Below are positions 4,331 through 64,000 of a DNA stretch of 64,000 nucleotides, one piece after another. Position numbers and translations under genes: made by a program. The notes under the pieces were generated by a model, which did no database searches, was not told where the DNA came from, and saw only the letters and a program-made list of their open reading frames with translations. This stretch comes from Diphasiastrum complanatum (Eukaryota > Streptophyta > Lycopodiopsida > Lycopodiales > Lycopodiaceae), in assembly GCA_029204225.1 (NCBI GenBank), contig CM055092.1, positions 60,813,527 through 60,877,526 on the forward strand, in the 5' to 3' direction. Position 1 is the stretch's first letter, and the number at the start of each line of letters is the position of its first letter.

Positions 4331-4830
4331 GAAGATTATAGCTTTCACCCATCGAGCCTTTGTTGTTGCATTTGGAGGATGGGGACAACCGCACGTCGCT
4401 TATTTTCACCCACCACCAAGCCCTCGTTGGGACAACCGCATGACATTTGTGAGTAGAAGTTCAGTGCTCCTATCACAATTAGCTATACACTCACGATATG
4501 CTCATACGTGCAAACTCAACTAAGAGTTCGTAAGTCGCGGGACTCGGTCCCATGCTTACAAGGCAATGGGCAAGGTCAAGGTCCGGTACCATAAGATATC
4601 CCTGCATAAGGAAAAGGAAAAGAAAAGCCAACGTGGAGTCCATTCCCCTCAAAGAATCTATACACGTGGCAGTAGGAGATTGGGCAGACCCATTTCGTGC
4701 CATTCCCCTCACAAAAAGCGGTTGCCCCTGGCACCCAAAAAAGGGATACTCTAGGAGTCTTGGAGCCCACCTTGGCATCGACCGCCCACTCTATAACTTC
4801 CCTTTTCCCGGCTTCGACGCCCTCCAAATG

Positions 4831-5190
4831 TCGGTGCTATTTTTAGCTGGTTGCACGATTCGCTCAGAAAAGCAGCGACAAGCCTAGACGGTCCTTTACC
4901 TGTCACATGAGGCCCACAGAAAAAAGGGAATTTATAAGATGGTTGAAAGTGGGTCCCACCGGCGGCTTCTCTCTCTCGCTAAAGCAACAGCCACCCTAGA
5001 AGGTCATTTTAGTATGAGGGCAGAGAGGAGGGGGGAAAAGGAGTTTATAGGGTTGGTGCGTGCGTGAAGTGGAGGGTCCTACTGCTATCTTCCTTGTTCC
5101 TCAATTTTCTTCTCGGGAGAGCAGCAACAATCTTAGACGTTCCCTTGAGAGTGAGTTAGATGCGATAAGATTACGAAACTTTATAGGGTT
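4831..5190 (+). promoter_or_regulatory. Degenerate tandem repeats upstream of the PUF gene
   Basis: Two phrases alternate at roughly 110-140 bp spacing. One is of the type AGCAGCAACAATCTTAGACG (about 4873, 4983 and 5120). The other is a TTTATAAG/TTTATAGGG box followed by GTGGAGGGTCCTACTGCYATCTTCC (about 4931 weakly, 5043 and 5181). The TTTATA cores could serve as alternative TATA boxes. The array ends just before the (CT)n tract and leader of the Pumilio gene, so it probably spans its core promoter. The promoter role is inferred from position. Confidence 0.4.
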
Positions 5191-5245
5191 GTCGCGGGCT
5201 TCTTAGTGGAGGGTCCTATTGCCATCTTCCTTCCTCATATTTCTG

Positions 5246-5279
<34 letters not shown>

Positions 5280-5840
5280 GTTTTCCCGTTTTCTGCTTTG
5301 CAGCGCCAGCGAGCGAGCGAGCGAGAGGAGGTGCACCGCCGCTCATCTGCTGCTGCTTCTCAGCCCATCAATCGATCGTCTCCGCTTTTATCTGCCTTCG
5401 ATCGGCACTCCGGAAGCTTTCCCATCTGTTGCTGGTTTTTTGCTGCTTGCAATCTGAGGGCCTACGCAACCCGCATTGCCGAAGGATCAATACCCGCCTT
5501 TCCATTCAGAGTCTGCTCTTTTTCAGTCTAATCGGTGCTTTTTACCTTCCTATGGCCCCTTTACTGATTCCTCAGCTTGTTGCAAGCTCAAAATTTGATG
5601 TAGTATTCTCTGTTTTATTCTTTCTGATAGGATCAAGCACCTGATTTGATTAATAGTTGCTTTGTGCTGCCTGCGAGATGGTTTCGATTCAGCTAGATTG
5701 AGAGTTTCGAGTATTGGGTTGCCTTTTGATTCTTGAGTTGTGTTTGTTCTTGTCGGGTTAGGTTGATGGCAATGCATCTTGGTCAATGGAATAGCTGTTG
5801 GTAGGAGCAATGTGAGAGCGACTGTGTATAGGCAGCAGGC
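5191..5840 (+). promoter_or_regulatory. Putative transcript leader of the PUF gene with (CT)n tract
   Basis: A CT dinucleotide tract runs from about 5242 to 5280. About 560 bp of GC-richer sequence without a long convincing frame then leads to the ATG at 5841. (CT)n tracts near transcription starts are common in plant 5' UTRs. The leader may contain an intron (a GT-rich, T-rich stretch lies at about 5600-5800), but I cannot place its ends. Confidence 0.45.
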
Positions 5841-7510
5841 ATGGATCAGGATGATGTGGAATTTGAGCAGCTGCTTGGGGAGATTCCTCGCGCTACCTCA
5901 GCACCCCCACAGGTGGAAGAGCATCACAGAGGCCACTCTTCCGGGCTTTTCTTATCAAGTAGCGATGTTGGCAAGCCTTTTTCAGCCACGCGCAGAAGCG
6001 ATGGGCCCGTTGAGGGCTCCGCGCACATCTTTTCTCGTGAAAAAAAGCTAATATATTCTTTGCCTCAGCAGCAGCAGCAGCTGCTAAAAGACGATCATGC
6101 TTTGGCTTGCAGCTTTGGAAGCCTCAGTTTGAACTCCAATCACCATCATCGGCCTCACAATGAAGGGATGATGCATGCACAAGGCATCGACGGGCAAAGG
6201 AGCAATGGGTTTGCAAATGGCAACTCTTTTGCTGATGAAACCGTTATGGCTTTGCCGCAGGAATTCTCCCTTGAAACAACTGGGCAGCCTATTCAGAAGC
6301 TGCTTAAGGGGGGGAGGGTTTCCAGATCCAGCCCAGTTGATGCATATGCAGCGTCAGTACACAATCAGCACCATCTTCACAATCAATCTATTCATGCAAG
6401 TAGTTTATTTCCAAATGGATCAGCATCTAGCAGTAATCTGAGCACCAACTTTTCAAAGCAGCCAGATTGGAACCCTTTTACAGTGCCTCATGAGCACCTG
6501 AGACATAGCCAGCTTTTGCAAGACCAAATTTCATTACAGAGGCGTGTCCACGAAGACCAGATCCAGGCACAGCTTTATGCCAGTTTACAGAGCCAGGCAT
6601 CTGTTCCTGGATTTGCAATGATGCCAGTTTCCAGGATGCATTCGTCCATGCAGACAATGCAGCCTGCCTTGTTTCAACCATGCATCCATTTAGGTGATTA
6701 TAATCAGCAGCTACTGTACAAGCAGCGTCAACATTTGTCACCAGTGCAGCAAGTGAATTGGGGTGGTCTTCATCCCCAGGTAGGGCCAACAGCTTCAGCC
6801 CCAGAGCCTTTTCACCTGCCACAAGTCGGAGGACTTTGTTGTTCCAGTCAGGGTTACTGTTCTCAGGACGAATCCTGCTCCTCTGCTCTAGCACACAGTG
6901 AAGCTGCCCCAAGAAATTCTGATAGTCATCTGCTGCCTGGTTCACATTTGCCAACAAAATTGTTTCCACAATTCAATACTAGTAACACATTCCAAGCAGC
7001 TATCCCAGGCACAAGAATCAAAGCGGGATTCTCAAGGTCTAAAGCTGGATCGGTGTCAACTGGAGGGGAGCTCCTATATCCGACCCACGAATTGCAAGCA
7101 TCTTTGCATTCTGCTACATTGCTTTCTGAGATGTACCCTAAATCGCAATCCGTAGCCCAAGTGGAGGTGGAGGCAGAGGGCACAAGGCACTTCAATGCTG
7201 GCACATCTCATTTGCAGCAACAGCCTAAATACAGCAGTCTTGAAGAAGTCAAGGGCCAGATTTATGCCATTGCAAAGGACCAGCATGGATGCCGCTTTTT
7301 GCAAAGGAAATTTGACGAGGGTAGTGTGGAAGATATCAAGACAATATTTTCTGAGATTTTTGACCACATTGTTGAGCTTATGACAGATCCATTTGGTAAT
7401 TACTTGATTCAAAAGCTTCTTGAGGTTTGCACAGAGTCGCAGCGCATGCAATTTTTACTTGTGGCGACACAAAAAGCAGAGCTTGTCTCAATCTCACTAA
7501 ATATGCATGG
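5841..7510 (+). CDS. PUM: PUF gene exon 1 (N-terminal region and repeats 1-2)
   Basis: Opens at ATG 5841 and ends with CATGG before GTAAGC, in phase 2. It codes for the disordered N-terminus, which includes a poly-Gln run near 6067, and for Pumilio repeats 1 and 2. Repeat 3 is split by the first intron at the Gly before TRAVQ. Confidence 0.9.
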
Positions 7511-10500
7511 GTAAGCTTTTGATAGTGATGAGTTTAAGCAATGATGAATGATTAGTTGCTGTTGCCTTTCACCATTCAACCCAAATCTTTGTGGAAGGTA
7601 CTTAGAAGGCTTCACATTGCAAATCATACTTGATGTAAGGTTAAGTTTGATATGTTTTGCTGTGTTCTAACCATGATGATGCTAAAAATTGAATTTATGT
7701 GGTATTCGTGTAAATGTTGTTCAGAACTCGGGCAGTGCAGAAGTTGATTGAAACACTGACATCACCAGAGCAGGTAGACATTGTGATAAGGTCACTTCAA
7801 CCAGGAGTTGTGAATCTTATCAAGGACTTGAATGGAAACCATGTTGTTCAGCGTTGCTTGCAGCATCTTAGCAATAAGGATAGTCAGGTACTCTGCCTGC
7901 CAACAATCAATCTCAGTTATGTATAATGTACCTCTTGCAGTTTCCTAAATTCTCTGCTACAGGATGATTCTCAACTTGATTAGATCTTTTTACTGACACA
8001 AATACAACATGTCAAAGAGCACCCTTTGAAACACTATTATCCAGGTTCATGAGGATTCATCATGTGAGAATCTGATAATTTTTTTGCTGTTTTGTAGTTT
8101 ATTTTTGACGCAGCAGCATCTCATTGTGTTGAAATAGCAACACACAGGCATGGTTGTTGTGTCCTTCAACGGTGCGTTGATTTTTCATCGGGACCTCAAA
8201 GAGATCGTTTGTTTTCCGAAATTGCTGCCAACGCGCTTGTTCTATCACAGGATCCCTATGGGTAGCTCCATCCACCTTTGTTGAGACAGCAGCTCTGATC
8301 TCGGTTTAGTGTATTTGTTACAAGATTTTTTGTTTAAATGTCTTTTAGTTCTTTCAGCTATCAAGACAGACTGTTGTACTCATGTTTGTTTCATGTTGAT
8401 ATAAGGGGCTTTAACTTTTTTTTGAATGTGAATATCATCTCAGGAATTACGTCGTGCAATACATTTTGGATCTTAACATATTGTGGGCCTCAAATGAAGT
8501 GATGGTAAGATTGGGAGGGAATTATCCACAGTTGGCAATGCAAAAGTTTAGCAGTAATGTTGTGGAGAAATGTTTGAAGTTGGCGGATGAAGAGAATAGG
8601 ACCCGAATCATTCACGAGTTGATAACGAGCTCATCTCTTGGCCAATTACTGCATCATGAATATGCCAATTATGTCATACAGTGCGCCCTTTCAGTGTCCA
8701 AGGTGTGTCATGCTCTTGAGATTGTCTTTGAAGTGTATGGCTTCTCAAGTTATTGTGCTGTAATTCTCATGTATTTTTGTGTATGTTCTTCAATGTTTCA
8801 ATATCAACTTTCAAAGGTTTTCTCTTTCTTTTTTGTTTATACGTCTTTTTTTCCTGACAGAAACATGTGTTCTCCTTCCATTAACCTTTTGTTGACAATT
8901 ATGAGCATTTTAAATGATGCTTGGGTGAACTGTAAAATTCAGATGTTGGCAGCATAGAAATCCTTGCATTTTCTATCCATTTAGCTTTCCATTTACGATT
9001 TGTGCATTTCAACGAAGCTTGACGAAAGTTGGGAAGTTGGAAGTATGACATTGCGCGTTATATGCTCCTAACTACGTAATTTGTTCTTATGTCATGTGGG
9101 CACTCAAGTATTGAATTGCATAGTTTCTGTTAGAGGGACCAAAAGCTTTATGTTTTCATTAAATTATGTGTCAAGTTCAGGCCACACATATCAGCTGTCA
9201 TATTTTCTTAGCAAGGTAGTAATGTGGAATATTCCGTAGCTTGCCTGAAACAATGCACATACGTCTCGTGTCTCAACAGTCTTGCTCATCTAGTCTCCAC
9301 AAACGGTCCCTTAGAACTCATCATTATATCCTCATCTACCATAGTAATATTCTGATCTCATCAATTCTTTGACGCTAAGCCATCCAACATGAATTCATGA
9401 AGACGATGGAGCGAAACCAAAACCGAGGCTAACCACTAACTTCGAAGAAACGAAATCAAGTAAAAAATGTAGTGCACACAGATGGAAACCACCCAAAGAG
9501 CAAAACAAAGTCTCAAATAAAAGATTTGCAAGGGTCTTGGCGCCAACCCACCATCAACAAATATTTTTAGTGGTAGTCTAGCATGGATTAGCTAGACTCC
9601 ACTCAGTCGTGCTGCTTAAGGAAATTCAAACTCAAAGCCACTACACTAGTGCCAAACCTCTTCCGAGGCCCCTTTTTGTGGAGGAGATCTGGCTTATAAG
9701 GGCTGGACTTCTGGATTATCCGTTCAAAAAAACCTTGTAGAAAGTTACTACTATTACTAGCTTTGTGATCAACAATAACCATCAAGATGAAAAACCGTGT
9801 AAGATCAAAATTTCATAAATATATCCAATTACAATAGCAAGGGGCATAATTCAGTTCATTTGTAGAAAAGCAAGAATCTACAAATCTGCAAAGAACTTTT
9901 CAAAGTTTGAGAGGATGAATGGTAAGAGGATCAATATTGTCAACAACAATGATTGGAACAACATTATTTGTCAAGTTTTTCAACAATCTGGTCGAGGTTA
10001 CAATGGAGACTATGTGATGGGGATAAGAAGAGAAGAAGAAAGGAAAATGGGGAGATATTATAAGATCAAAGATGGAATGAAATGTGCTATGTACTGCATG
10101 TAACTAGCCCATGTGCTTAATAAGTACTGCTTTGCATAATCGTGGTGCCAAGTTAGAACATGACTAGTTAACTAGGATAGTTAATAAGGAGGCTAGAACA
10201 ACCGTGCTATATTATTGAATAGTGGGACTCCTAATAATAATGCCCAAATTAGGCTGATAAGGCCCCAAACTCATAATAGAGACACAAAGGACCACCATAA
10301 ATAGAGGAGGTCATGCTAATTTGGAGGCTATTCTACATTTGTCTAACTTTGAATTCTATGTGTTTTGAGAGCTTCTCTTTGAGAGCTATGGCTTTTGCCA
10401 AAGGATGGTTCATGTGCCACAATCACTTGAGAGCTTGATCATGCTCTAGCTTAAGGCTTGATGTATTGAATGATCAATAATAATGATGAATCTTACCTTT

Positions 10501-55990: not shown

Positions 55991-56010
55991 TTGTTTCCCA
56001 GATCAGTGCG

Positions 56011-56785
56011 TTGGCGATAAAAAGAAAACTAAGAAGGATAAAAATGCGAATTCAGCAAAAAATGCGAAAAGCACAAAAAACCACGACAATCAAGACACAA
56101 ACTGCAGAACAATCTGCAGAAATTCTTAAAGACCCAGACTTTGATAGATCTAATGAAAAATACTATGAACCAGATATCAATTTAGAAGCTAAGATGATGA
56201 AACGAAGAAAGTTAATAAAGTAACATTTTTAGATCCAATAATAAGTAATGAGATACCTAGAGATCCATCCCCACTTAGACATCGTTCATATGATATAGTG
56301 GAAGATTTTACCTCTAGAATGCCCAAAATAACTTTCAAATAGTTATTAGAGATAATCAGTACTATAAGAAAGAGATTAAACAATTCTTACAAAAAAAAAA
56401 AAAAAGGAAAGCTAAGTTGCCATTGGTTGATGTGGGACTGTAAACCTTGGTGACGAAGGCCCATTTGAAATCCAGATAATAATAAAAGGCTGCATCTTAG
56501 ATAGTGTATCCATAGATTTTGGATCCAGTGTAAATATAATGACTGAAGAGACAACATACGATTTACGCATTCATCATAGAATAGCGCTTACACTTAGACA
56601 TCTGAGATTAGCAGATGCAACTAGAAGAACTCCAATAGGGGACTTGTCTCAGGTTGCAGTTTACATTGATGACCATAAGTTTTTGATGGACTTCATTATA
56701 TTAAAGACCACTAGGAAATCATCTTACAAAGTCTTATTAGAAAGATCGTGGCTATATCAAGCCGATGTTATTACTCACTAGAGGA
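56011..56785 (+). pseudogene. Second Gypsy fragment (gag end and protease)
   Basis: A Lys/Arg-rich frame (56011-56220) is followed by a degenerate protease with IDFGSSVNIM (about 56515) and then ALTLRHLRLADATRRTPIG, FLMDFIILK and SWLYQADVI. The part 56560-56780 is about 90 percent identical to 51183-51410, so the two come from the same family. Confidence 0.72.
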
Positions 56786-56799
56786 AGTACTGTAGCAGA

Positions 56800-58400
56800 A
56801 GGCTGTCTCTCAAATATTTCGTCTTCTGATTTGTCAGTCGAATGCAAAGCGACTCGAAAATTTTCATTTTTGTGTTCGTCTTCTGTTCCCTCTGTCACTG
56901 GTGGCAGATCTTAGTACTGTATTTCTAGAACTTCATAGCTGACATGATTACCATTGGCCATTGTCCTGCTCTCATCAAATCTGACATCTCTCATTGTCTT
57001 TATAATGTTCGTGTTTGGCTTTTAGACTCTATAGTATGACGAATTATTGTCATATCCTACCAGGTATCCCTGTTTAGCTTTCTTGTCAAGCTTCTTTCGA
57101 AGCTTATTAGGGATATGTGCATAAGCTGCACAACCAAAGATTCTAATGTGAGACAGGTTGGGCTTTCTACCCCACCATAATTTGTGTGGTGTCATGTGAG
57201 GGACACGAGACTTCCCTGTCTTATTTTGGATGTATGTAGCTGTAGCTACTGCTTCAACCCATAGTACTCTTGGAGCTTTTGAGTAGGCCATCATGCATCT
57301 GACAGCTTCCATCAGGGTCCTATTCTTCCTCTCAAACAATTCGAGATGTATTCGCCACCTTGATCTATCATGATCTGCTCCACTTTGTTGCCAGTGCATC
57401 TCTCTGCCCAATTCACATACTCTGTGAATTTATCAAATGTTTCTGACTTATTCTGAATGAAATACACTCTGGCAAATTTACTATAATCATCAATGAAGGT
57501 TATGTAATATTTTGAGCCTCCTACTGAAATCACACTGAAAGGCCCACAGATGTCAAAATGTACTAACTCCAGAATCTTGGTCGTTCTGTAGGAGTCATTG
57601 ACAAATGGAGTGCGAGACATCTTACCCTTCAGGCATGCATCACAAGTGGTCGAATTGTTCAAATTCGAGATGCTGACCCCTATTATTGCTCCATGATGAC
57701 TTGCTTGGTAAAGTGCCATTGAGTTCATATGGCATAGTCTCCTGTGCCACAAAGTGTCTGGCGAATCATCATGAGTCTAATGCACTTGATCTGCAGGCAG
57801 GCGTACCTTCAGGTGATATAGATTACCTTTTCTTCTGCCTTGACTGATCAGGGTATTGGTACTGGATCAATAACATTGCATGCTTTGTCATAAAACGTCA
57901 GACGCATCCCTGCATCAGCTATCCTTGCCACAAAAAGCAAGTCATGCTGTAGTGTAGGCACAAACAGGACTTCTTTGAGTCATTTGTCTCTATCATTCGT
58001 GTTGAGCCAATACCGTTCACTTGGTATTTGGATCCATGTCCAAGAACAATGAATCATGAAGAATCAGCACTTCGAAAATCAGACGTAATTTGTCTTGATG
58101 TCACAAAGTGTGAGGTAGCTCTTGAATCTAGGATCACTTCTTGTGTGTCAAGTGTTGACACTGCACACACATCTGCACAAATGTAGGTAGCCGAACAATT
58201 TCTGTTCGATCTCTCTTCGCCCATTTTTGAGCTCTCTGGCTCCTTGACATAGGATGACCTGTTACTATTTTTCTATCTGTTTTGTGCTGATTTGTTCCTT
58301 CTTGGGTTCAAGCGGCAGTCCATGGCTGCATGACCTTTCTTGTGGCAAAATCTTTTGAGGGATTGACTTGATTGAGTGATAGGAGAGTATGAGCATTGTT
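56800..58400 (-). pseudogene. Second minus-strand Copia piece (integrase, protease, knuckle)
   Basis: Integrase is in two overlapping frames. 57752-57312 has LWHRRLCHMNSMALYQ, CDACLKGKMSRTPF and LVHFDICGPF (where HSD is usual), and VEQIMIDQGGEYISN. 57411-57022 has FERKNRTLMEAVRCMMAYS and FGCAAYAHIPNKL. Upstream on the same strand (58200-58060) lie a protease remnant EVILDSRATSHFV and a knuckle end CHKKGHAAMDC (about 58340). It resembles the piece at 54.0-55.7 kb. Confidence 0.75.
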
Positions 58401-59076
58401 AATGGACAATAGAATTTTTGATTTGTGAATCTTACTTCATGAATCAGATATGTAACTTATTATTCATTCATTGGATGATTATAGGTTTAAACAGAATCTT
58501 CTTCTTCTCTACTTTTGATCTTCATTTTTATACATTACATTTATTAACAACCTAACAAATGATAATATATTATACATTATCTATTAAAATAATAGTGTTC
58601 CCAGGCTGCTCACACTGTCTGGGCCCGGGACCCTTTTTTTGAGATTTTCTTCATGTTTTCTTTTTCGGGCAGTGGGTGCGCTGCCCCACGGACAACCCTG
58701 ACCCTACTTAGAAGAAAAAAATTTCCATTTTAAAAATTTTTAACCCTCTCCTCTGCCCACCCGCCCAAAACCCTATCTTGCCCGCCCAAAATGCCTGGCC
58801 GCCCGCAAACTTGCGGGCTCACATCGCTAGTTATAATATATAATAACATATTAAGTATTAATATGATATATAAAATTGTAATATTTAGTAATACAATAAT
58901 TAACTATTTTATTCCAAAGGAATAACTAACTGAAATTTTAAATTTAAATTACCTATTGCATTTTTGTAAATCCAATTGTTGAAGCTACACGAAGAAAACA
59001 CATTGATGTAAATACAATGCTATTATTTATCAATCAAATAGTACATTCCATATAAATTTCGAAAAATTATTCTTCA
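58401..59076. other. AT-rich and GC-rich spacer; possible left end of the next element
   Basis: 58440-58600 and 58840-59070 are very AT-rich. Between them lies a GC-rich block (58610-58830) with GGGCCCGGGACCC and repeated GCCCGCCC phrases. This block might be the terminus of the transposon that follows, but the other end is outside the window and cannot be compared. Confidence 0.3.
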
Positions 59077-59220
59077 TTGTCTATGTCACCCACTAATGCC
59101 AAGTTTGCTTGTGCACTTTCGATTACTTTGGAAGGAATTTTCACAGTCTTTAACAAATCTGGATGTCGACGTGGCCTCCAACTCCATACTATTACTGATG
59201 TTGGCTCCCAACGTTGTGGA

Positions 59221-61875
59221 TCAGAAGGATTGCTTCTCCATTGCTTTCCAAGAATCCTTGTATCTTTCTACAATAGAAATATTACCTCTAGCTATTGGAG
59301 CCCAATATTGGACTGATACTTTCATATAGTTTGGTGAATCTTTGTCTTGATCAACATCAGAAAGTGTATCACCTAACCAAATTGGATAGACATTCTCATT
59401 TGGTCGCACTAGCACAAATTGGTCTTTTTGTACATCCATGTGAGGCTTGAAAGAAACTTTTGGCTTCCCTTTGGCTGGTCCGCAGTAGTGTTCATCATCA
59501 TCATCTTCTGCTTCCACACCATGTCGATCTTCCATATCATCATGCATCCAACTAGTTTTTGGCCAAAAACCATCCATCAATTGTGTGTTGTTGGTGACAT
59601 TGACACTCTCAAGCACATTTGTAATGTCATCCCAATATTTAATAATAGGAGAAATGAATTTTTTGAATGATGGGTTGACAATTTTACTCTCAATAGACCT
59701 TCTCCAAAAACCAAGGTACTTACTTAAACCATCCATGATGTTATTTTGATCCTTGAGAGTCTGTAGAAGTGGTACTGCAAGTGGATCTCCTTTTGGCAGC
59801 ATAGGATGACCGTCAGGATCTTGCATCCATAGTCGTATACCTTCTTGTGGTTTCAGTGTCTTCATTGTTGGATTCATCATGTATTGCATGATAAGAATGC
59901 CATCTCTAACAAAAAACGAAACTGTAGAGGTTGCTTGTGGCCAACCAATGCATCTGTCCCATCACATATGTACCCTTCAATAAAGCTTTTGAAGTTTGGT
60001 ATCTCTTGCATCAAGTACGACACCGGAGAAAAGCACAAGCTCTCGATGAAGACATCCATCAAGTGGCAAAGTGAGAACACACAATTTGAACGAAGCCTTT
60101 CTGAAAGCCTACTGAACATTGCATCAACATCCTCATGTGTGTGGCCAACCATTAAGAATCCAAGATGCACAATCTCAAATATGCCCCTTGCTGTGAGAAG
60201 GGAGAGAAATGCAAAAACATATCGATTTTTATTTTCAAAACCACAACTGTCAAGTTGCAAGAACAAGACTCTTGGTAGGGCATTAAAACTATCATTTTCT
60301 ACTTGATTAAGGCATTGCACATTCATCATTGCATTATCAACTTGTAGTGGAGAAGTTCTTGGAATTTCAAGTAGAGAAGAACCCTCTACATGTGTTATTA
60401 CATTACTATTTTTGACTGAAGAAAATCCATCTACACTCAACTGTACACTAACATTTCTAGTATCTTTGTTTTTGTTCTTTTGCAACTTTCGATGAATATC
60501 GTATGCATCTTTTGATAGTAGGCTACCAAAAATGGCTTGTTGTGGCACCTCTATAAAATTGACATCTCCTTTAACATCCTCATTTGGAAGATCCAAATGT
60601 GTCAAACATCTTGCAAGTGACCCCACTGTGAAATTTGGATCAGATGGCCAATATCCCATTGCAAAATGACTATATCCACTCCTCTTATGTCCATGGACTA
60701 ACATCCCTGTCAAGGAAATTGGAAGCTGCATGACACAACTCAGGCTTTTAGGATGGGGCTCTAGCCGAAGTATGCATGTCTTTACTTGATCCATTTTATC
60801 ATGAATAATACACACATATTTGCTAGGATCACAACAAGCTTTTTGCTTCCAAGAATAGTACAAATTATGACATGTCATTTGTGCAAGCATGTGTTTTCTC
60901 TTTTCCATGAACAAATTTGCACGATCTTGTACCACCTTGGTTGATGCCAACTTCATCTGTATTGAAGTACAAATGTCACATTTTGAAAATGAGCTAGACG
61001 GATGAGTAAATGCATGATTTCGATTTGAAAGTAAACTTCTAAAACCATGCACTACAATATATATTCATTATGAAATCCTAAGCTTGAGAATGTGATGTTG
61101 ACTTCACGCAAAATATCTTGTTGCTTATAAACTCCTGCCAAAATGAGTTGATTGTCCCTATCGCCCTCAAATGTTGTTCTGCTCCTATGAGGCATAATTT
61201 ATGCATTGTTATCCACATAGTCTTGGATAATTGCTTTGGCCATATCCATGTGTTCCCATGCTCGTCGTATTATTCCTTTGTTTCCATGTGTTGCTTTTCT
61301 AGTCCCTTGCTTATAGGAAGCTTTTTACCTGTGAAATGAAGCCTTTGATATTCCATGTATTGTGTACCATGCTTTTCCACATATAGTCCCCCCACAAATT
61401 AACATAGTTATACCTCTTTGTTTTCCTTCCTCGTTCTGTGAGGCTTGAAGCATATCATATACATATGTAACCCTGCCAGACGAATTTTGTTCCCAATATT
61501 GTTGTCGAGCTTCTTCAATCTTTTTCCTCTTCACATGTTGACAACAATTCTTATCACAAAAATCAACAACTGAAACTGCACGAATGCTTTCAGACATCAA
61601 GAGACATGGAATCTTTGACGAATTTGAGTTACTCTCATGTTTTGATGTCTTTCTATTGACCTTTCCAGACCTTCTTTTCCTTGCAACTTGTGTTGATTTT
61701 GTAGTATCAATTTGCATAACTGATAACATATCTTGTTTGTGTAAGTCAAAAATGGTCTCATCCTCCTGTTGATGGTCAATAAGCTTACTGCCATCCTCCA
61801 GTGTCACCAAATCTTTCAGAATGGATTGTAGATTCTGGACTCTCTTCTTGTGAAGATATTGTTGAAAGATTTAAA
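59221..61875 (-). pseudogene. Transposase-like gene (DUF7869-type), broken
   Basis: Read on the minus strand. An N-terminal zinc-binding part (61810-61325) has DFCDKNCCQHVKRKKI, RVTYVYDML, then ICGKAWYTIHGISKASFHR. It continues in the same frame past a TAA near 61325 as THGNKGIIRRAWEHMDMAK and, past a second TAA near 61205, MPHRSRTT. After a frame change, 61052-59877 carries CDICTSIQMKLAS, LQLDSCGFENKNRYVF and GFLMVGHTHEDVDAMFSRL. The last two are the core I associate with DUF7869 proteins, probably an RNase H-like nuclease fold. A slip in a T6 run near 59920 leads to the C-terminus (VRDGILIMQYMM, QFVLVRPNENVYPIWLG). The family name is from memory. Confidence 0.6.
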
Positions 61876-62333
61876 AAGGTCAAAGCTAAGCAACTTGAAG
61901 TAGGAAGAGCTCCTTCTTCTAAAGTTTATTCTAGTATTTTAAAAGATGCACTAAAGGGAAAAAGACCACATACGTTGGGCAATGATGTTTTTTCTAGGAG
62001 AGACATTCAATTGGTAGAGGGAGATCTTACTTACAGGTATTATGTTGTCTCTGGTCAACACTCTATATTAGTTGCAAGAAGAATAGTGGAGTCTCCAACA
62101 TGTCCACAACATCTAAGAGACTGTTATAGTACTAGAAATTCAAGGATACTAGGTGCACAAAATTATCTTGAAACTTTTTTGAAGCTTTCAAGATTCATGA
62201 ATCAACTCCATCAAGAGGTTATGGTAAAGACTCCATATCAAGATGCTCTATCACAAGCAAGAAAACAATGGGAATACTTTGGTTGTCTGCCAAAGCCACA
62301 AGAGGGCACTCCATAGCAAACTCAAAATGGAAG
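61783..62333 (+). pseudogene. ParB-like domain part of a ParB-methyltransferase gene
   Basis: The frame is open from 61783 and has no clear ATG, so an upstream exon or loss is likely. Residues include IVDSGLSSCEDIVERFKKV, then DIQLVEGDLTYRYYVVSGQH followed by SILVARRIVES. The Y-x-V-x-G-Q-H-(R)-x-x-x-A-R pattern is that of the ParB/sulfiredoxin fold, with Ser where Arg is usual. It ends in frame at a TAG (62314), but a shifted frame reads GHSIANSKWK to the donor AAG/GTGATC at 62333 and joins the next exon in phase. ParB-like domains bind or cut DNA and hydrolyse CTP; what this one does is unknown. It lies head to head with the transposase-like gene, slightly overlapping. Confidence 0.45.
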
Positions 62334-62469
62334 GTGATCCTTGTACTTAAGCTATGTTTTTTTTTTAATCTTTTTTATTACTAGATTTTAAGTAATAAAG
62401 ATTTATTCATGCATTTCTAAATTGTAAGTGTGTTTATGATATTTCCTTGTCTTACGAAATGTTGTGTAG
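62334..62469 (+). other. Probable 136-bp intron of the ParB-methyltransferase gene
   Basis: Starts GTGATCC, is T-rich with stops in all frames, and ends TTGTGTAG. Joining its flanks gives SKWK-EFMEAIK in one frame. Confidence 0.45.
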
Positions 62470-63042
62470 GAATTCATGGAAGCAATAAAGGTTACATTGA
62501 AGGCAATAAACGCAAGAAGTGACTTGCATATGCTTTTGAGTAGCGAGTTTATTTTCAATAGGTGGTTTGATATTATAGAGAAGTACATAATCGGGGAAAT
62601 TGCAAACAACAGGGGTGAGCATTCCAATAAGAATTCAAATGAGGTTGCAAAAGGTAAAAAGATACAAGTGGATGGTACCACACAATTATCTCCCAGCATG
62701 TTTCGTTGTATTCAAGGGTTGCTTGATGATGAGGTTTTAAAGATACAAGAAATGATATTTCGTGGCACCATATTGTTAAAAAAGGCAAAATTAGTAACAG
62801 AGTACAAAGACATGGAGGATGTGGCTACAAGTTTCAAGTATAATAGAGTATTGAAGAATGGAATTGAAAAGTACTTAAAGAGCATCTCTGGTGAGGAGAA
62901 GCTACAATATGATGAGATTGCAAAAAAATACAATATCACAAAAGAGCTTTATGATAAGATGTATAGTTGGAGCAAAGATTGGATGACAAAAAACCAATGC
63001 ACATGCGAATACATTTGGAGTACAACAACGTCTACATTTTGA
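62470..63042 (+). pseudogene. Middle domain of the ParB-methyltransferase gene
   Basis: The frame is open from the acceptor and begins EFMEAIKVTLKAINARSDLH. It is charged and helix-rich, with a possible helix-turn-helix-like patch at YDEIAKKYNITKELYDKMYS. I know no family for it. Near 63000 the frame slips, and the neighbouring frame reads LEYNNVYILKGLGGFS, which leads into the methyltransferase part. Confidence 0.4.
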
Positions 63043-64000
63043 AAGGCCTTGGAGGATTTTCAACACAGGGGAATTAATTTCATGCTTTACAGATGTGATA
63101 GCAGCATGTGGTGATTCTAATGACATTGGGTTAGTGCTTGTAGACACTACATCACAAGGGCCTCCATACGAGTGGACCACAGATGCTTTAGAAAGGTTGG
63201 TGGAATGCATTTCTAGCATTATCTTGGGTGATTCTTATGTCTTGGTTGCATTAGTACCTTATGGACCAGTTTTGAGTGCTTTGGATACTACTTTACGACA
63301 CATTGTTGGTTCTGTTCATCTAGAGTATGGATCATACACTAGAGGGGATGCATGTAAAAAAAGATACACAGACAGAGGACAAAACCATATGGGATGCTCT
63401 TATTACCAATGAAGTGTCGTCCATTATATATGATGAAGATGAAAGTGAAGAGGAAAAAGAATCACCATCAAAATCAATGTCAATTTCAAAAACAAAATTT
63501 GGATTGTTTGAGAAGCCTATAACATATGAGAGTTGTGCACTAAGCGGAGGTTGTACCAGCAAATATCCCAAAGACTGCACATTCTTTTCTATGCTTATTT
63601 CCTCCTTTTTCCAGCATGGAAAAGTTGTTGTAGATGCATTTACTGGAGGATTCGCCATGAGAGAGGCCCTACGTAACGAGAGGAAGACATTTGTGTTTGT
63701 AAGTAGCTCTTCTGAGAAAGATGTGCTTGAAAGTTATGCTTCCATGATGGTTGAAAGCTTTTCTGAGGTTAATGCCTTCTATAAAAGCTTGGGGGGGGGG
63801 GGAGATGGGAAGTGCAAGTCAAAGTGCAAGCCAATTACCTTCTTCATGTCAAGCTCAGCCACTGCTTGCAGATTTCCTTAAAGATATTGCTGACTCCTCA
63901 AAGGACATTGAATTGTTCCATATGCAAGAACGTTATGTTGGCCTTGATGATGTTATTGAAGATCATAATAATAGCACTTTGATTGAGGATGAGAGGCATG
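63043..64000 (+). pseudogene. Beta-class amino-methyltransferase-like domain, cut by the window edge
   Basis: From about 63071 the frame reads ELISCFTDVIAACGDSNDIG, then LVLVDTTSQGPPYEW, a strand with DTTS where DPPY (motif IV) is expected. A helix and the strand DSYVLVALVP follow. After a slip in an A7 run (63356-63362) an acidic linker leads to GKVVVDAFTGGFAMREALRN, like the motif I F-x-G-x-G segment. Motif IV before motif I is the permuted order of beta-class N4-cytosine/N6-adenine methyltransferases. A G12 run (63790-63801) shifts the frame again, and an open frame then runs past 64000. Degenerate motif IV suggests no catalysis, or a different role. Confidence 0.45.

Follow-up and report, generated by a model that had tools for sequence, protein, structure and literature searches.

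Near the right end of a 64,000-nucleotide stretch of the clubmoss Diphasiastrum complanatum genome (the window; C1:60813527-60877526), a broken DUF7869 gene on the minus strand lies head to head with a second broken gene that runs on the plus strand from 61807 to beyond 64000, raising the question of whether the two belong to one transposon or are separate repeats brought together by chance. The initial annotation had proposed a transposon in which a transposase-like gene faces a ParB-methyltransferase gene, and it regarded this pair as possibly undescribed, a status that rests on searches of open-licence literature only. Comparison with other copies in the same genome (1.74 Gb, 5176 contigs searched) indicates that the window very probably contains a decayed copy of a D. 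complanatum cut-and-paste transposon, composed of a leftward DUF7869 transposase gene, a rightward second gene, terminal inverted repeats (TIRs) of 28-32 bp and a 4-bp target site duplication (TSD). The interpretation as a pair is supported overall, with the qualifications that the point where the genes meet is a deletion scar, that a ParB domain is unconfirmed and that methyltransferase activity is doubtful; the original observation is in sum partly confirmed.

Element ends and the enclosed gene pair

Two copies retain both ends, and in each of them DUF7869 (minus strand) and the second gene (plus strand) are enclosed between the TIRs. The larger, X22 (C7:56149596-56164803, 15,208 bp), has TIRs matching at 31/32 positions and a TSD of GAAG, the flanks reading ...AGGGAAG to the left and GAAGGTT... 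to the right, while the smaller, Y32 (C3:77038565-77049175, 10,611 bp), has TIRs matching at 26/28 and a TSD of TAAA. These two copies thus span 15.2 and 10.6 kb, a 4-bp TSD is present in 2/2 of them, and the frequency of a random 4-mer match in these sequences is 0.6%. In both, the second gene has lost its first part, and frames are broken. The left end, AAGACATGTTTAGT, is common to E23, E26 and E32, whose flanks are unrelated, and its inverse is the point at which similarity stops in E22, E27, E30 and E32; the element ends read AAGACATG, of the form AA...TT. Among 11 small fetches the left-end core was exact in nine, the remaining two differing by a base. By its own account, the initial annotation's proposal would fall if one partner were consistently missing from other copies, with element ends at about 61.8 kb; instead, the ends lie outside both genes. 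The window copy itself has no left TIR, a Copia remnant abutting it at 58349, and its rightward similarity to other copies stops approximately 449 bases beyond the window end, before any right TIR. A search for TIRs within the window alone gave nothing above shuffled sequences, and the ends became visible only via the other copies.

A genome search with P0048, a database relative of the second gene, gave at least 82 places (73 of 459 candidates scored), which merged into at least 64 loci. Nineteen of these were fetched at roughly 10 kb each and examined together with the window. DUF7869 lies upstream of and divergent to the second gene in 10 of the 20 loci, window included, in support of the head-to-head arrangement put forward by the initial annotation. 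The opposite-strand DUF7869 gene was seen at once in L019, L024, L029 and L032, and appeared after more upstream DNA was fetched in L026, L023, L025, L020 and L022, the last being selected for extension on the basis of its known left end. Three loci are without it (L027 and L031 after 6 kb more, and L033), and seven (L021, L028, L030, L034, L035, L036 and L037) had no DUF7869 in the approximately 10 kb fetched and were not followed further. Longer second genes stand beside DUF7869 in E19, E20, E23, E24, E25 and E26, the outer ends of which are incomplete or were not fetched.

Two separate repeats nested by chance, i.e. a DUF7869 element in or beside a methyltransferase-like repeat gene followed by segmental duplication, could account for the fact that second-gene similarity in the window starts sharply at 61807, precisely where the DUF7869 frame ends. 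Some copies are indeed duplicates: L019 and L029 share 98.5% identity across 9.9 kb, and these two, like the window and L033, do not count as independent. Nevertheless, the pair recurs in identical order and orientation on C1, C3, C5, C7, C8, C12 and C14 with differing internal deletions, and one TIR pair encloses both genes at two places where flanks and TSDs differ, so that nesting is largely refuted and now appears very improbable. The 61807 junction was at first read as proof of chance nesting, a reading overturned by comparison with the other copies.

That comparison shows what was lost in the window. Position 61807 joins E23 positions 4887 and 10530, and the 5.6 kb missing relative to E23 includes codons 1-135 of the second gene, some N-terminal DUF7869 codons and the tandem arrays between the genes. 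E24 is a shortened copy in its own right; there, positions 4995 and 6003 are the ones joined in the window, which lacks about 1.0 kb by this comparison. The N-terminal codons matching P0014 that are absent from the window DUF7869 gene number from 11 to about 60, depending on the copy compared. A second deletion, at 62027-62030, has removed approximately 0.72-0.75 kb (by copy) from inside the second gene and joins two of its parts, and the open reading frame (ORF) at 61801-62316 is therefore a chimera. The initial annotation had both genes starting at the same point: such a junction does exist at about 61.81 kb, but on sequence comparison it is a deletion scar and not a native start, while the pair itself is genuine. 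Deletion of the intergenic region brought the two genes into contact in the window copy.

L033 (C1:59452001-59461900), at a distance of 1.4 Mb on the window's own chromosome, duplicates window 56001-58487 plus 62281-64000 at 99% and is without the window segment 58488-62280. In E23 (C5:57551001-57566900) the genes are separated by about 5 kb that includes tandem arrays beginning at 7670; such intergenic arrays consist of 40-44 bp GC-rich and 120-128 bp repeats, occupy 6482-9721 of the X22 fetch (C7:56149537-56165500) and, in the case of the 120-128 bp array, are common to several copies.

Left ends are more widespread than the genes. From 48 rows, 34 left ends were kept, with haplotig duplicates retained; the 14 omitted comprise 11 short matches (query 1-28) beside the same ends and three internal second matches. 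Of the 34 left ends, seven have a second-gene locus (of the 64) no more than 25 kb away on their own strand, one more has such a locus at 34 kb, and three have one on the other strand. Since 23/34 have none within 40 kb, many left ends are probably deletion derivatives, or copies whose gene was not scored. In many copies, though not all, the left TIR is followed some 21 bp further inward by another repeat resembling TTTTGAGACTTG (L052 and L054-L061, not L053). Left-end sequence also occurs on the strand opposite to the element at C3:53997787-53997878, beside L029, and at C3:31302928-31303019, beside L019, representing either inversion of an end or an adjacent element.

Features of the window locus (positions are those of the window; a dot marks features without strand)
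Feature	Position	Strand	Basis
Probable decayed two-gene transposon copy, ends cut	58349..64000	.	blastn against E23, E32, E26, E24 and E27; right extension L018
DUF7869 pseudogene, predicted transposase	59073..61807	-	Pfam PF25273; tblastn with P0001 and P0014; predicted structure
Conserved motifs QLDSCGFENKNR and GFLMVGHTHEDVD	60123..60257	-	sequence; invariant columns; residues in copies
Deletion junction between both genes	61806..61809	.	alignment to E23 and E24
Second gene, first-part remnant (P0051 residues 136-208)	61807..62030	+	
Second deletion junction, 4 shared bases	62027..62030	.	alignment to other copies
Second gene, SGQHS-part remnant, ParB-like by eye only	62027..62316	+	
Second gene, methyltransferase-like exon, frameshifted	62476..64000	+	P0048-P0050 alignments
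Copia retrotransposon remnant, outside the element	57022..58349	-	Pfam; upper limit is the onset of element similarity

The Copia remnant to the left of the element is marked by Pfam matches to gag_pre-integrs, rve and SH3_retrovirus within 57022-57752. Further left, at 5832-8954, exons of a Pumilio-repeat (PUF) host gene stand amid Copia and Gypsy remnants.

DUF7869 as a predicted transposase

The initial annotation described a broken minus-strand gene with the core motifs QLDSCGFENKNR and GFLMVGHTHEDVD, and this was borne out: Pfam assigns the gene at 59073-61807 to DUF7869 (PF25273, E 1.7e-42), with frame breaks near 61.07-61.33, 59.9 and 59.24 kb. The predicted fold (mean predicted local distance difference test score, pLDDT, 77) is RNase H-like and of transposase type, and transposases and integrases top the list of fold matches, with Mos1 the best, although families ranked low or missing from that list are not thereby ruled out. 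Acidic residues are conserved across DUF7869 proteins, and in the model the two motifs would supply two components of the predicted active site, its second aspartate and its E/D helix. Taken by its predicted fold, DUF7869 appears to be a DDE/D transposase with presumed catalytic function, which would bind the element ends, excise the element and insert it with a 4-bp stagger.

Homologues of DUF7869 numbered 47 among 2170 candidates and include named proteins of molluscs, a sea urchin and the liverworts Riccia and Calypogeia; no relatives were confirmed in IMG/VR or GTDB genomes. A sequence search of the PDB gave nothing convincing, the best match (E 0.0081) being an unrelated adhesin region. 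In the open-licence literature, DUF7869 was named in no paper found, and a search with the motif words gave unrelated texts only, among the matches listed. A likely function for a widespread domain of unknown function is one outcome of this work; another is the definition of both element ends in a plant lineage for which little transposon literature was found.

The second protein and its methyltransferase-like domain

In L023, an open frame of 456 codons (4510-5877) in the second gene extends from the part resembling P0051 across SGQHS, and after a gap comes the methyltransferase part that resembles P0048, a layout that is likely to represent two exons. Judged from order and spacing the two would encode one continuous protein; of the database relatives, 0/4 span both parts. 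These relatives, P0048-P0051, were the only ones found by protein search among the 7999 candidates sharing most words. Two of the four are annotated in D. complanatum, among them P0049 (O6H91_05G094400), all 420/420 residues of which are contained in an ORF of L023, on C5. Structure prediction gave no usable fold (pLDDT 31), and no relative was confirmed in IMG/VR. Between subfamilies of the second gene dN, the non-synonymous divergence, is 0.41-0.58 and dS, its synonymous counterpart, is saturated (5 pairs), whereas among close copies dN/dS is 0.44-0.87 (5 pairs); the gene has therefore probably been under long-term purifying selection, while recent copies decay. The second gene is, furthermore, retained with the transposase gene in many copies.

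The initial annotation identified a beta-class methyltransferase-like domain in this gene and called it a DNA-modifying cargo. Similarity of this kind is weakly detectable. N6_N4_Mtase matched 2/6 exon sequences below the Pfam cut-off (L025, E 0.0068; P0050, E 0.029), the best score being 16.8 bits against a cut-off of 26.7, and had no match in P0048, P0049, L036, L037 or the window pieces. MTase_II matched P0050 (E 0.011), 1/3 sequences scanned, around the S-adenosylmethionine (SAM) site. With nine methyltransferases of phages and E. coli, profile alignment (hhalign) at the SAM-site region reached a score of 36.5, whereas 20 column shuffles gave no more than 22.8, and E. coli YhdJ alone gave E 0.0015. 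Pfam matches of second-gene ORFs to unrelated families also reach E 0.01-0.1, and the methyltransferase family match alone is therefore not convincing. The window exon has a SAM-site-like VVDAFTGGF and, in place of DPPY, the catalytic motif of phage-type ParB-methyltransferase proteins, it has DTTSQG. DPPY is likewise absent from P0048-P0050 and from 9/9 loci inspected, with DTTS, DTSL, DMTS or NTTS at its position in P0048 and the nine loci and DATS in P0050. Three of these loci, L035, L036 and L037, are divergent family members that are 40-50% identical to P0048, each without DPPY. The domain is thus weakly detectable at the sequence level and seemingly degenerate, its methyltransferase activity is doubtful, and a DNA-modifying role is therefore unproven.

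The ParB half of the earlier claim was not confirmed. GxHR is the ParB motif, and SGQHS in the window resembles it by eye, but ParB_N had no Pfam match in the window ORF or in the exons of four other loci, and a match to HTH_ParB in L036 (E 0.078, residues 46-96) lies below cut-off and away from SGQHS. By hhalign, the window ORF scored 14.35 against ParB, with shuffles reaching 18.9 (40 shuffles), and five loci together scored 11.3, with shuffles reaching 18.4 (100 shuffles). Across Pfam, PHROGs, NCBIfam, PADLOC, tblastn to phages and hhalign, there was no ParB_N and nothing above chance, so that a ParB domain is not confirmed. An active, phage-derived ParB-methyltransferase that modifies element DNA would fit the weak N6_N4_Mtase and MTase_II matches around the SAM site and the hhalign scores above shuffles; it is at odds with the absence of DPPY even in divergent subfamilies, with ParB similarity no higher than chance and with the lack of any phage match found for P0048 or the window ORF, and is considered improbable. 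Phage ParB-methyltransferase proteins (L002 and L003; L004 without a ParB_N match) do have a similar order of a GxHx-like motif and a SAM-binding region, whereas the second protein has no significant ParB similarity, is missing DPPY and is probably encoded in two exons.

Relationship to known transposons

With TIRs, TSDs and a DDE/D transposase by predicted fold, the element is very probably a TIR cut-and-paste DNA transposon, and its ends or TSD exclude several superfamilies as these are described in PMC10741241: CACTA, which needs CACTA/CACTG ends and a 3-bp TSD; Tc1/mariner, which needs a 2-bp TA TSD, despite the Mos1 fold match; hAT and Mutator, which need TSDs of 8 bp and 7-12 bp, respectively; and Ginger, which needs 5'-TG...CA-3' ends in place of AA...TT. 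Sola is closer. Its members have a DDD transposase, 4-bp TSDs and TIRs of 11-1124 bp, are mostly 2-9 kb with some over 15 kb, and occur in the moss Physcomitrella (PMC10741241), so that by description the present element is similar in its TSD, short TIRs, large size, DDE/D-type enzyme and presence in early land plants. The element could accordingly be a Sola member with an extra gene, DUF7869 being the Pfam name for a Sola-type transposase, and the TSD length, TIRs and sizes of X22 and Y32 do fit the published descriptions (PMC10741241; for the 4-bp TSD of Sola2 also PMC3627910). Set against this, the 4-bp TSDs described for Sola2 are AT-rich (PMC3627910), which GAAG is not, and the text available for Sola mentions no methyltransferase-like partner gene (PMC10741241); the case for and against Sola membership is evenly balanced.

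The element shares the PF25273 domain and its conserved acidic residues with the DUF7869 proteins of liverworts, molluscs and sea urchin, but a second-gene relative was found in no named organism besides Diphasiastrum (best 7999 candidates, a search of limited sensitivity). More speculatively, and on balance unlikely, DUF7869 might define its own transposase superfamily across land plants and animals, the clubmoss members of which carry a dedicated partner, derived from a catalytically dead methyltransferase fold, that would read the internal arrays and so oppose silencing or regulate transposition.

Association of a transposon with a methyltransferase or methyltransferase-like gene has a precedent in the Mariner elements of algal viruses, and carrying such a gene is therefore not new in itself, although, as far as that source describes them, those elements have other transposase and methyltransferase families and an endonuclease as well (PMC3627910). 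Among plant and fungal transposons, Vandal MuDR and TET/JBP-carrying elements combine a transposase with a second gene that acts, or is thought to act, on silencing marks (PMC12730594). Their proteins are unrelated to those described here, and the function proposed below is drawn by analogy with such two-protein transposons, Vandal MuDR in particular (PMC12730594): the second protein would most likely be a DNA-binding accessory factor, serving in anti-silencing or in binding the ends or arrays, rather than a methylase, with the 120-128 bp intergenic arrays as its possible binding sites. If this is true, an apparently non-catalytic protein of methyltransferase-like type that is carried by a transposon would represent an accessory or anti-silencing factor of a new, testable kind.

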